A DNA stretch of 64,000 nt, from the IMG/VR virus record IMGVR_UViG_3300036715_003906, positions 1 to 64,000 of that record; one strand, given 5' to 3'. Of this stretch, positions 9,781 to 20,425 are shown piece after piece. Source of the DNA: a virus. The position numbers were made by a program, and so were the translations under genes. The stretch's first letter is position 1, and the number at the start of each line of letters is the position of its first letter. Below the pieces are notes generated by a model, which did not search any database, was not told the DNA's origin, and saw only the letters and a program-made list of their open reading frames with translations.

Positions 9781-10455
9781 ATGGGCCAGCGTAAGCCTCG
9801 CCTGCCCCGCAAGGTCACCCCGGATGAGATCTTCGAGACGTATGGAGTCGAGGCCCTGGCGCTGGCCCGAACCCACAAGGGACCCGGCCGGGTCGGGGTG
9901 GAGGGGACGCTCGACCACGGCTACCTCCAGATGAAGCTCGTGCCCGAGGCGTCGCTCCTCTCGGTCAAGGGGATTCGGGCGCGCATTCCCGTGATCGACG
10001 AGGGAGGGGTCATCTTCGCGATCCGCGCGGGACTACGGGCCACCTGCGTCCTGCTGAGGGACCCGAGGCGCGTCGACCTCGACGACCTGGCCGACCAGTA
10101 CGAGGAAGAAGCGCGGCTCGTCCTCGCCCGGTACAAGGAGCGCACGGCGGTCTGCATCTACATCCGCGAGAACGGCATCATCGAGGTCCGTGCCATGCCC
10201 GAGAAGGATTCCCTCTGGTTCTTCCACAAGGAGTCTCCACACCCGGCGCTGGCGCTCATGATCTTCGTCCTGCCTGACTGGGCCGTGGCCTACACCTTCC
10301 GCATCTCCGCCGAGGTCACCGAGGAGGCCCCGCCCCTGACCCCGGCGGAGGTCATCGCTCACAAATCATGGGGCGGTGTGCGCAGGGATCAGGTGAAGGA
10401 GTTATCGATCTTCCCGTTGTCGAGAAAATCGTCCTCAAGCCCAGGGACGAGGTAG
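9781..10455 (+). CDS. Unknown 224-residue protein
   Basis: The ATG at 9781 begins MGQRKPRLPRKVTPDEIF. The middle has two strand-rich parts (GYLQMKLVP, VIFAIRAGLRATCVLL) and a helix of Glu/Arg (DQYEEEARLVLARYKER). The last 22 codons overlap the 3' end of the convergent topoisomerase gene by 67 bases and look artefactual. A GGTGTAG motif lies 9 bases before another ATG at 9765, which opens only a nine-codon frame (MENNNHGPA). Removing one base would fuse it to MGQRK, so the real start may be 9765. Confidence 0.55.
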   Translation: MGQRKPRLPRKVTPDEIFETYGVEALALARTHKGPGRVGVEGTLDHGYLQMKLVPEASLLSVKGIRARIPVIDEGGVIFAIRAGLRATCVLLRDPRRVDLDDLADQYEEEARLVLARYKERTAVCIYIRENGIIEVRAMPEKDSLWFFHKESPHPALALMIFVLPDWAVAYTFRISAEVTEEAPPLTPAEVIAHKSWGGVRRDQVKELSIFPLSRKSSSSPGTR

Positions 10456-11324
10456 TGGGAGCGGAGGGTCGAGGGCTCGTGACCGACGGCGTCCGCCGTG
10501 GTGTCGAGGGCCCGCTTGAACTCCTCCTTGAGCTTCTTCTCCCGCTTCTTCTTGTCCTCGGGGAGCGCGCCGCCCTTCTTCCGCTCGGCCCGGAGCTGCG
10601 CCTGCATCTCATTGTTGGCGTGGAAGCCGCGGATGTCCTTGGCGGTGATCGTGAACTTCTTGAGGTAGCTGTTCACTTTGTCCGCGGTGACCTTGCCGCC
10701 CTCCCAGGCGAAGATGTCCGCGTCCTCCCCCTCGACGGCCTCGTAGGCGTCACGCAGGGCCGTGAGGATGGCCTTGTCGGTCACCTGCTTGTCGTGCTTG
10801 ACGCCGGCCTTGCCCACGTACTTGAGCTTGGCCCTGCCCTTGCCGAACGTGACGTGGCTCTTCTGCCAGCCGGTGACCCCGAAGTGCCCGTCGTCGGCCG
10901 ACTCCTCGTTGCCCACCCGCTCGTAGGTCTCGTCCATGAGGGCGACGGCCAGGGCGGTGAGCTTCGTCTCCGGATCGTCCGATCGGAGGTCGCGCTTCAC
11001 CTTCGCCCGAAGCTCGCCGATCTTGCCCCGGAGCTTCTCGATCCGCTTGGCCTTCTCCCGGTTCCGGTGCTCGATCTGCTTGTCCGAATAGAGATAGACC
11101 GTGCCCCCCTTGTCGGTCTTCTTCTTGTCCTTGTACTTGGCCGCCAGCCGGGCCGTCAGGGACATCCCGACCTCGGGCCCCCCTTGCCCGCACCCCGGGC
11201 AGGGGAAGCTGGCGTCGAAGACGGCCCCGGTCTCGGGGTCGCCCGTGAAGCCGCAGGCCGGGCAGCCGGCCGAAGCCGTCCGTACCCCGTACCGGGCCGC
11301 GAGTCGCTGGGCAAGGGGCGTCAT
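10389..11324 (-). CDS. DNA topoisomerase type IB with N-terminal zinc ribbon
   Basis: A 311-residue protein. An RVGNEES segment near 135 and KSHVTFGKGRAKLKYVGK around 155-175 match the pox-like type IB catalytic core. GFHANNE carries the conserved His region, and HEPSTLRSHYLVP near 280-294 carries the active-site Tyr. It relaxes supercoils through a 3'-phosphotyrosyl link. Unusually it starts with LAQRLAARY, then a CPAC...CPGC zinc ribbon (about 20-45), then a second SLTARLAAKY before the core. The start overlaps the upstream gene by ATGA. Confidence 0.85.
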   Translation of the reverse strand: MTPLAQRLAARYGVRTASAGCPACGFTGDPETGAVFDASFPCPGCGQGGPEVGMSLTARLAAKYKDKKKTDKGGTVYLYSDKQIEHRNREKAKRIEKLRGKIGELRAKVKRDLRSDDPETKLTALAVALMDETYERVGNEESADDGHFGVTGWQKSHVTFGKGRAKLKYVGKAGVKHDKQVTDKAILTALRDAYEAVEGEDADIFAWEGGKVTADKVNSYLKKFTITAKDIRGFHANNEMQAQLRAERKKGGALPEDKKKREKKLKEEFKRALDTTADAVGHEPSTLRSHYLVPGLEDDFLDNGKIDNSFT

Positions 11325-15165: not shown

Positions 15166-15455
15166 GATGTCGCTTTCCCTGCCCGCGCAAGAAGGAAGCT
15201 CTTGAGCTTCCCGGCCACCTCGGAGGCATCGAGGTTCCCGGCCTGTCGTAGCCCCACCTCCAGCGACCCTGCAAGGAAGGACGCCGCCTGCTGGGGGTCC
15301 TTCATCATGGCCCAGCAGGGCTTGCAGTAGTGGAGCGCCAGGGGCGCCTCCTGTCCCGTGGCCCGGAGCACGGCTCGCTCGGTTGGGGTGAGCGTCACCG
15401 TTTCCATCCGGCTCTCCTCGCGGAAGGCCCCACAGATGCCACAGGCTCGCTTCAT
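15162..15455 (-). CDS. Small zinc-binding protein
   Basis: A 97-residue product. C-x2-C (CGIC, near residue 5) and a second CKPC near 45 form a likely four-Cys zinc site joined by an SAM-like helical segment (TPTERAVLRATGQ). ATG overlaps the YkgJ stop (ATGA). C-terminal half is helical. Function unknown. Confidence 0.55.
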   Translation of the reverse strand: MKRACGICGAFREESRMETVTLTPTERAVLRATGQEAPLALHYCKPCWAMMKDPQQAASFLAGSLEVGLRQAGNLDASEVAGKLKSFLLARAGKATS

Positions 15456-16063
15456 TTCGCCCCGTTGTACGCGGAAGCAATCGCCATGTCCACATCGTGC
15501 GGGGAGAGCGTCCCGAGGGCCAGGCGCTCCCCGAGAAGCAGGGCCAGGCTCACGGGCACCGGGGCGGCCAGCGGGAAGAGACGACCGAGCCGCCGGACGT
15601 GCTCTCCAAACTCCCGGGCCTGGGAAGGCAGAGGGTCGATCCCGAGGCCCGTCCCTGCCCGATGGGGGTGACACTGGTCAGGGTCTCCGTGGCTCACGGT
15701 CACCCGGCAAGCCATCGGCCTGCCTCCATGCCCGAGGCACAGGCCCTTGTCGAGCACGGGGCACGGTATCCCCGCCAGGAACCACACCTCGGGGGCGAGG
15801 CCCCGCACCTTCTCCCAGTGCTCCTTGATCCGCGTCTGGAGAGCCGTGGTCCACCGGCCCTGCGCCCCGAGCGCGCGGTAGAGGAGGAGCCCCTCCACCA
15901 CGCTCGTATGGACCGGGTACAGGCAGCAGGACGCGCACCCCCTCTTGCACGAGAGGGGGCCTCGGCCCAGCGCCTCCTGGTGCGCCTCGTCCCCCAGCCG
16001 GGCCCGTTCGCTCCGGACATCCGCCACGGTTCGCTCGACGAGCAAGGGGAGCTTACGTTTCAT
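15452..16063 (-). CDS. YkgJ-type cysteine-cluster protein
   Basis: A 203-residue protein. C39-x3-C43-x2-C46-C47 (CKRGCASCC) followed by C101, C109 and C119 in CPVLDKGLCL and RPMACR match the UPF0153/YkgJ family, thought to bind zinc or an Fe-S cluster; no enzymatic role is established. Phage copies are known but their purpose is not. The start overlaps the end of the gene at 16053 by 11 bases. Confidence 0.75.
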   Translation of the reverse strand: MKRKLPLLVERTVADVRSERARLGDEAHQEALGRGPLSCKRGCASCCLYPVHTSVVEGLLLYRALGAQGRWTTALQTRIKEHWEKVRGLAPEVWFLAGIPCPVLDKGLCLGHGGRPMACRVTVSHGDPDQCHPHRAGTGLGIDPLPSQAREFGEHVRRLGRLFPLAAPVPVSLALLLGERLALGTLSPHDVDMAIASAYNGAK

Positions 16064-18836: not shown

Positions 18837-19085
18837 TTACCTCACGAGCCAGTCGGTCCGGTACACCACCGTGACCTCATGTTCCTGACTGGCACACCGG
18901 AGGTGAACCCGCCAGTAATGGTGCGGGGCCCTCCGGCGGAGAAGGTGCTTCTGGATGAGGAGCGGAGACCCGCACGGGCACCGTGCTTCGGCCAGGTGGG
19001 CCCTGACGTCTTCCGGGCCGGCCGCGGGGATCGCAGCGGCAACCTGGTCGTCCGTGAGGTCGGGGGAGTCTTCGAGGTTCGTCAT
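18837..19085 (-). CDS. Unknown small protein with one C-x-C pair
   Basis: An 82-residue product. Acidic N-terminus (LEDSPDLTDDQVAAAIPAAG), then ARCPCGSPLL and HHYWRVHLRCASQEHEV, which could form a treble-clef-like zinc site (two Cys, then His/Cys). ATG overlaps the upstream intein-containing gene as ATGA. Confidence 0.5.
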   Translation of the reverse strand: MTNLEDSPDLTDDQVAAAIPAAGPEDVRAHLAEARCPCGSPLLIQKHLLRRRAPHHYWRVHLRCASQEHEVTVVYRTDWLVR

Positions 19086-20425
19086 GGCAGGAGGGGCAGA
19101 CCCTTCGTGGTGTTCCGCTTCTTCGGAGCCAGGGTACGGTCCGCAGCGTAGCAGTTGTGGGTCGCGAGGCCCGCCGCCATGAAGGTCCGGGTGCTCGTGC
19201 GGATGTCGATGACCTCCCGCTCCCCTGCCCGCTCGATAGACACGATGCGGTCGTGGGCGAAGTCGATGCTCCTCCCAAAGAAGCCGAGCTTGTAGTCGTC
19301 GAGGAAGTCAGGCCCCAGGGCCACGTCAAAGCGGTGCAGGACCGAGGACACGCTCAGGCGATCCGCCCGCTTCCATTGCTTGCGGGTCCGGCCCTCCAGC
19401 CACAGGTGGTCCTCGGTCGTGTAGAACTCGGTCGACTCCGTCACGACGCGCAGGACGGGCTTGTGGAACGTCCAGACACCTTCCACTTTGCTGCTACGGA
19501 ACTTGCGGATCTTCCGCGGGCCTTCCGGTTCCTCATCGAACCCGATGAGCCGGTCCCCCGGCCGCACGGTGGCCAGGGGCCGCCAGGAGAAGTCCTCGAA
19601 CAGCACCGGCGTCGCCGGATCAAGGCAGTACGTACAGCCGAGCGTGCAGGATTCGTTGATCGTGAAGGGGTCCACCATGAGGACGCACCCGCAGCCCTCG
19701 GAGGGGGGAGCCTCATGCCCGGGCAGCCCGAAGGCCCGGGCCGGCGCGCACACCCCTGGCCGCAGGTTCGAGGGCAGCCCGTCCACCCGGTAGAGGGTGC
19801 GGTCCTCGTTGCAGAGCAGGACCCTCATCCCGTGGACCTGGGCCCGAGCCGCAAGCTCCCCCATGAGGGCGAGGCGCGCTTCCCGGTCCCGCGTCTCGAC
19901 CATGAGGTCGTTGCTCTGGAGGAAGGACAGGTACACGTCCCTGATCCGGGACCCCCTGATCTTGTCGAGAATCCGCACGAAACGCCCGATCACTTCCTCG
20001 TGGGGAAGCAGGGGCACGGGGGAAAATCGCCAGTGGGTCCGGGGAAAGGTGCAGGAGGTGCCGACCAGCATGTCACACGCTTCGTCGAGGTCAGGGGCTC
20101 CTTTCTCGACCTCCTCCCACCCCGTCACCGTGACGTGGACCTCGACCTTGTCGTACTCCCGCAGAAGCCGGTGATCCCGGAGCAGGTTCCGCGGGTCCTT
20201 CGTCCAGAAGGTGAGCCCCAGGGTGTCCTCGGGGCTCAGGGACCAATGGGCCGGAACCCCGCTCCGGGGGTCGATCCCGGCGAAGCTCCCCTCGGCCAGC
20301 CTGTCCCGAAACCAGGACCACTTCGCCGCCGGGACGTCGGTCCAGCGGGAAAAGGAGTAGGGGAGGTTCTCCTCGACGCCCGTCTTGAGGGCGCGGGGGG
20401 CGGAATGGATCAGTGGTTCGCTCAT
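19082..20425 (-). CDS. DUF1848 radical-SAM-like protein interrupted by an intein
   Basis: A 447-residue precursor. Residues 1-266 and 425-447 together match DUF1848: an N-terminal substrate-binding half with SFLQSNDL and CGC near 245, then INESCTLGCTY-C-YAADR, the C-x3-C-x2-C cluster expected to hold a 4Fe-4S centre. The 158-residue insertion (267-424) separates the second from the third cluster Cys; that third Cys is the +1 splice nucleophile. Only after splicing would the cluster be complete. The remaining C-extein is short (23 residues). ATG at 20425 follows a class I promoter. Confidence 0.75.
   Translation of the reverse strand: MSEPLIHSAPRALKTGVEENLPYSFSRWTDVPAAKWSWFRDRLAEGSFAGIDPRSGVPAHWSLSPEDTLGLTFWTKDPRNLLRDHRLLREYDKVEVHVTVTGWEEVEKGAPDLDEACDMLVGTSCTFPRTHWRFSPVPLLPHEEVIGRFVRILDKIRGSRIRDVYLSFLQSNDLMVETRDREARLALMGELAARAQVHGMRVLLCNEDRTLYRVDGLPSNLRPGVCAPARAFGLPGHEAPPSEGCGCVLMVDPFTINESCTLGCTYCLDPATPVLFEDFSWRPLATVRPGDRLIGFDEEPEGPRKIRKFRSSKVEGVWTFHKPVLRVVTESTEFYTTEDHLWLEGRTRKQWKRADRLSVSSVLHRFDVALGPDFLDDYKLGFFGRSIDFAHDRIVSIERAGEREVIDIRTSTRTFMAAGLATHNCYAADRTLAPKKRNTTKGLPLLP
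19154..19627 (-). other. Mini-intein (158 residues) inside the DUF1848 gene
   Basis: Begins Cys-Leu-Asp-Pro-Ala-Thr-Pro (block A), continues WRPLATVRPGDRLIGFD. Block B is TEDHLWLEG (TxxH-like), block F is EVIDIRTSTRTFMAAGLATHN, and it ends His-Asn before Cys+1. There is no LAGLIDADG or HNH nuclease domain, and 158 residues is typical for a mini-intein. Splicing should restore CTLGCTYCYAA. Confidence 0.8.

Follow-up and report, generated by a model that had tools for sequence, protein, structure and literature searches.

A DUF1848 gene of a phage was found to carry an in-frame insert that is best explained as a cis-splicing mini-intein of the class 1 type, which has lost its endonuclease in frame and is one member of a mobile lineage that homes to a conserved cysteine motif. 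We give this reading a probability of about 0.88. The window, i.e. the whole stretch of DNA analysed here, comprises the initial 64 kb of a viral record 251 kb in length. Members of the lineage of this insert occupy the position immediately ahead of the third cysteine in the CxxxCxxC-type motifs of at least five protein families. The features of the gene are as follows, in window coordinates.

19082..20425, minus strand: DUF1848 gene with the in-frame intein, encoding a 447-aa precursor (open reading frame and translation; PF08902, E 4.5e-23)
19628..20425, minus strand: N-extein, residues 1-266, with the C-terminal sequence ESCTLGCTY (alignment with eight uninterrupted homologues)
19646..19648, minus strand: Cys260, first Cys of CxxxCxxC, at -7 to the intein (invariant in alignments)
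19634..19636, minus strand: Cys264, second Cys, at -3 to the intein and a candidate disulfide partner of Cys1 (invariant; a -3 Cys is present in 45/45 inteins at the third Cys)
19154..19627, minus strand: 158-aa mini-intein, residues 267-424 (alignments; AlphaFold2 model; Foldseek match to the Ssp DnaB mini-intein)
19592..19627, minus strand: block A with Cys1, CLDPATPVLFED, the sole Cys of the intein (intein alignment)
19406..19417, minus strand: block B TxxH, T71-E-D-H74 (H74 invariant in the 14-intein alignment)
19282..19283, minus strand: scar of the missing 170-aa endonuclease insert, relative to the longer allele described below, between residues 115 and 116 of the intein (the alignment has no gaps on either side)
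19154..19207, minus strand: blocks F and G, DIRTSTRTFMAAGLATHN, with the penultimate His and terminal Asn (D141, H157 and N158 invariant)
19151..19153, minus strand: Cys425, third motif Cys and +1 splice nucleophile (translation, alignment)
19082..19153, minus strand: C-extein CYAADRTLAPKKRNTTKGLPLLP and stop (translation, homologue alignment)

The PF08902 (DUF1848) match of the precursor reached 82.8 bits against a cut-off of 30.5 and ended at residue 267. When Pfam profiles were run against the precursor, DUF1848 was the sole family above cut-off and no radical SAM profile matched; PHROGs gave no match for the protein. A CxxxCxxC motif of the radical-SAM type is present in it as CTLGCTYC, with cysteines that are invariant in the alignments. 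Judged from these residues it is likely an iron-sulfur motif, and Fe-S binding by the protein is putative. The structural model of an uninterrupted DUF1848 homologue gave weak fold matches to generic TIM barrels only (TM ≤0.40), and its Cys-containing tail was modelled with a pLDDT below 50. Two other genes were recorded on the minus strand of the window: a topoisomerase IB-like gene at 10389-11324 (PF01028, E 4.8e-27) and, near the DUF1848 gene, one for a Cys-rich protein with a CxxCxxCC-like motif at 15452-16063, for which PF03692 scored just below its cut-off.

Translation of positions 19154-19627 on the minus strand gave 158 aa without a stop, starting with CLDPATPV and ending with GLATHN, and the next residue is Cys. 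The extent, the initial Cys and the final His-Asn are exactly those proposed in an earlier note made from the sequence alone. All residues of a class 1 intein were found, namely Cys1, the TxxH motif, the block F Asp, the terminal His-Asn and Cys+1; the alignment of 14 inteins showed no variation at Cys1, at the His of block B, at the Asp of block F or at the terminal His-Asn. The structure of the intein was modelled with AlphaFold2 on its alignment (pLDDT 90.1), and the top Foldseek matches of the model were mini-inteins, i.e. Ssp DnaB (E 2e-8) and Npu DnaB (E 5.5e-8), together with gp41-1 and RecA inteins. The isolated intein scored 17.4 bits with the Pfam profile PF14890 (Intein_splicing), below the gathering cut-off of 35.8. 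Since this score of a divergent sequence is below the cut-off, the assignment was based on the structural match, the empty sites and the alleles homologous to it. Sequence matches of the mini-intein in the PDB were at chance level only, and the profile of the intein alignment matched LAGLIDADG endonucleases (1dq3, I-DmoI) and known inteins there.

Two viral scans yielded 30 contigs with DUF1848 relatives, of which about 26 are distinct since duplicates are among them. An uninterrupted CxxxCxYCY was present in 29 of the 30, and the alignment gap falls precisely at the junction of Tyr266 with the third Cys. A native 158-residue segment in DUF1848 homologues, which had been named beforehand as the observation that would speak against an intein, is absent from these 29 contigs, and the remaining one has a LAGLIDADG intein at the site. 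The view that the insert is a native domain of DUF1848 and not an intein could draw on the open frame alone; it is opposed by the 29 uninterrupted homologous contigs, the LAGLIDADG allele and the related inteins in other families, and it was rejected on the empty sites, with practically no probability left to it.

The occupied homologue (L020; IMGVR_UViG_3300028654_000001, a 512-kb contig) is in the same gene family and carries its intein at the same residue. Unlike the window copy, this intein is 328 aa long and includes an endonuclease with both LAGLIDADG motifs. The two inteins could be aligned without gaps save for one block of 170 residues, which is absent from the window copy after position 115, and they are identical at 64/115 positions on the N-terminal side of the break and at 32/43 on its C-terminal side (96/158 in total, or 61% over the shared positions). 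Since the alignment is otherwise gap-free, the window intein looks like the L020 intein with its endonuclease deleted. The catalytic residues, the fold match, the empty sites and the LAGLIDADG allele all agree with the mini-intein identity proposed earlier. The same note had known of no intein at this position of a DUF1848 protein; there is one in L020, several radical-SAM-type families have one too, and the NCBIfam entry NF038136 models one. An inactive or cleavage-only intein that leaves the gene broken would fit the loss of the endonuclease and the score of the intein alone below the Pfam cut-off. However, the catalytic positions and the fold are all kept, the frame is open across the 474-nt insert, and the intein identity to L020 (61%) is not below that of the exteins (52% by tblastn). 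We therefore consider a broken gene improbable.

As a functional mini-intein, the preferred reading, the insert is predicted from its residues to splice autocatalytically. Cys1 would attack the bond after Tyr266 and the acyl group would shift to Cys425; Asn424 would then cyclise with the aid of His423, and the exteins would be ligated to a 32.5-kDa DUF1848 protein with an intact CTLGCTYCYAA. The calculated masses of the precursor (50.7 kDa) and the spliced product (32.5 kDa) are close to the values of about 50 and 33 kDa estimated before. The boundary Y266|Cys425 in CTLGCTY|CYAA bears out the proposal that the third motif Cys is also the +1 nucleophile, and because one residue has both roles the precursor lacks an intact motif until splicing. 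Most likely, an ancestral LAGLIDADG endonuclease targeted the motif-coding DNA, which also provides the +1 Cys, and the placement of the intein would thus be selfish homing first.

Across all families, 45 inteins at the third Cys were read; their hosts are DUF1848, DUF5131, PA0069/Rv2578c, cyanobacterial radical-SAM and QueE genes. All 45 have Cys at -3 and at +1, and the -3 Cys was found in 0/15 relatives inserted elsewhere. The profile of the first scan, built from a three-intein alignment, retrieved cases in genomes and viral contigs that all, where the flanks were readable, lie before the third Cys, with hosts in DUF5131, deltaproteobacterial radical SAM genes of the PA0069 family and one cyanobacterial radical-SAM gene. 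This profile carried the C-extein residues CYA and was biased towards the third-Cys site, and the later searches were therefore made with an intein-only profile. The intein-only profile matched 32 of 397 Actinomycetota genomes (about 8%), and each of the 30 loci read has its intein at the third Cys; most of the genes are Rv2578c-like, one is a DUF5131 and one a QueE gene. In viral contigs it gave one further DUF5131-like case at high similarity (L126), after which came a drop to relatives of weak similarity, in terminases and in genes of other kinds as named by eye. Searches of the cyanobacteria (1/244) and the Deltaproteobacteria (1/247) returned the seed genome only. Nothing was found when the mini-intein alone, which is too divergent in sequence, was searched against the genome contig collection; the longer allele of L020 served better as a query. 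Matches on haloarchaeal plasmids, including one next to a UvrD-helicase gene, were discarded as too distant and with no Cys motif in the flank.

Several individual loci deserve mention. An actinomycetotal intein (L111, genome G354) interrupts, ahead of the third Cys, a gene read as QueE-like from its sequence, without a profile (GGCDYRCSW|...RN|CDSKFAV), and is divergent, starting with Ser and ending with Arg-Asn instead of His-Asn. Two deltaproteobacterial radical-SAM inteins (L068, L066) have altered or partly deleted LAGLIDADG motifs and are apparent intermediates of endonuclease loss. Furthermore, a single TGA within the endonuclease region interrupts the intein frame of a PA0069-type gene (L059/L076).

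A maximum-likelihood tree was calculated for 28 sampled third-Cys inteins and 13 inteins at other sites. A branch with support 97/94 separated all 28 from the 13 others; since the tree has no root, this "one clade" could be a grade. When QueE was placed outside the constrained set, the best tree was slightly different and p-AU was 0.129. The inteins group by host family, and six changes suffice for the seven family labels. The window and L020 inteins are sisters (100/99), in agreement with a smaller tree, but a sister relation of their exteins was rejected (p-AU 0.025). These facts are consistent with horizontal movement or repeated loss of the intein independently of the gene, and the discordance of the exteins could also stem from losses. 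The joined 30-nt target of the window has 13-21 bases in common with the targets of other third-Cys inteins, compared with 6-12 for targets at other sites. This similarity, which is partly mere codon sharing, makes occasional homing across families plausible.

The site might also have been kept for another reason. A disulfide between Cys264 at -3 and Cys1, or a metal bound by Cys260, Cys264, Cys1 and Cys425, could gate splicing according to redox state or metal, so that the Fe-S protein would mature only when the cell is reducing and cluster assembly is possible. A redox-sensitive switch had been raised in the earlier note and, by analogy, is plausible. It accords with the occurrence of the -3 Cys at all third-Cys sites and at none elsewhere, although this is a consequence of the site. 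There is also a precedent in the radical-SAM protein MoaA of P. abyssi, for which two reviews describe a Cys-3/Cys1 disulfide (PMC3922620, PMC10663303). Three host families still have endonuclease-free inteins at the site (the window copy, the cyanobacterial L071 and the Rv2578c mini-inteins L140-L142). Of these, L071, L115 (the same gene as L142) and the window copy have Cys1 as the sole Cys of the intein. However, selfish homing to a conserved motif accounts for the site without any regulatory selection, and occupancy is sporadic, with only one of the 30 viral DUF1848 contigs besides the window and about 8% of Actinomycetota genomes having the intein. Since the -3 Cys comes with the site, its presence is no evidence for selected regulation. 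The persistent endonuclease-free forms fit either a retained function or inserts that are merely hard to remove. Gating as the reason for the site is thus considered unlikely, and sensitivity to redox or metal would be a likely by-product of the closely placed cysteines at -7, -3, 1 and +1.

A broader proposal, equally doubtful in our view, is that one lineage has specialised on the third Cys, moves among at least five families in phages, plasmids and bacteria, and is partly kept because the -3 Cys, inevitable at this site, makes splicing conditional on redox or metal. If it were true, the Fe-S proteins would mature only under reducing conditions. Whatever the role of the site, the survey extends the single case of P. 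abyssi MoaA to a comparative set of 45 related inteins with the same catalytic-type cysteine in several Fe-S-type families, spanning long, partly deleted and mini forms as well as many empty alleles. With this set, the question whether inteins are selfish or act as environmental switches could be tested across hosts. It also suggests a route between non-orthologous genes, in which the intein follows a short conserved motif that supplies its splice nucleophile.

The phage of the window is rich in inteins. Outside the window, at about 129.1-131.7 kb of its contig (G000:C1; L139 1603-4165, minus strand), one protein is seemingly encoded in three open reading frames with two consecutive split inteins. 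Their N-terminal pieces, about 32 and 38 aa by eye, are at the ends of the frames, and the C-terminal pieces, matched by PF14890, are in the next ones. Two more large cis inteins are located at G000:C1:152330-153178 (L014) and about 160.6 kb (L016), and one of the genes is portal-like by eye. The phage of the L020 allele (G001) has up to six more intein-like matches at 292-377 kb of its 512-kb contig.

Among open PMC papers, no paper was found on the inteins of Rv2578c, spore photoproduct lyase, DUF5131/DUF1848 or QueE, and no description of the cross-family third-Cys pattern. The kind of intein and the Rv2578c site modelled by NCBI are already known, and the occupation of the motif Cys across families is the more interesting result. 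The closest modelled system is NF038136 ("intein-containing Rv2578c family radical SAM protein", an NCBIfam model of the "exception" type), in which a homologous intein lies before the third Cys (YRGCSHACxY|CFAR). The model matches the flank and intein of the window (E 7.5e-19), but its extein is an actinobacterial chromosomal radical SAM protein and the window scores 68 of 700 bits, far below the cut-off. A search with NF038136 recovered the same actinobacterial loci, and far more genomes have the gene without an intein. The DUF5131 inteins of a Streptomyces plasmid (NZ_CP129127.1) and of phage contigs (L057, L058, L126) are homologous as well, and they too interrupt the motif ahead of its third Cys, at junctions such as GCDN|CYAL. 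Their motif, unlike that of the window, is C-x6-C-x2-C; the extein is PF07505, as tested for the plasmid case, and the plasmid intein has LAGLIDADG. Inteins of phage terminases, portal proteins and RecA (for example mycobacteriophage LinStu, L116) resemble the window copy at about 40% over the N-terminal 92 residues; they have other insertion sites and a +1 Ser more often than Cys, and in the tree they fall on the opposite side. For the intein of P. abyssi MoaA, the two reviews cited above report, after Callahan et al. 2011, that the disulfide between Cys-3 and Cys1 blocks splicing until it is reduced. Its host protein is an archaeal radical-SAM enzyme, and the likeness drawn here to the window intein is that of the -3 Cys and of the type of motif.
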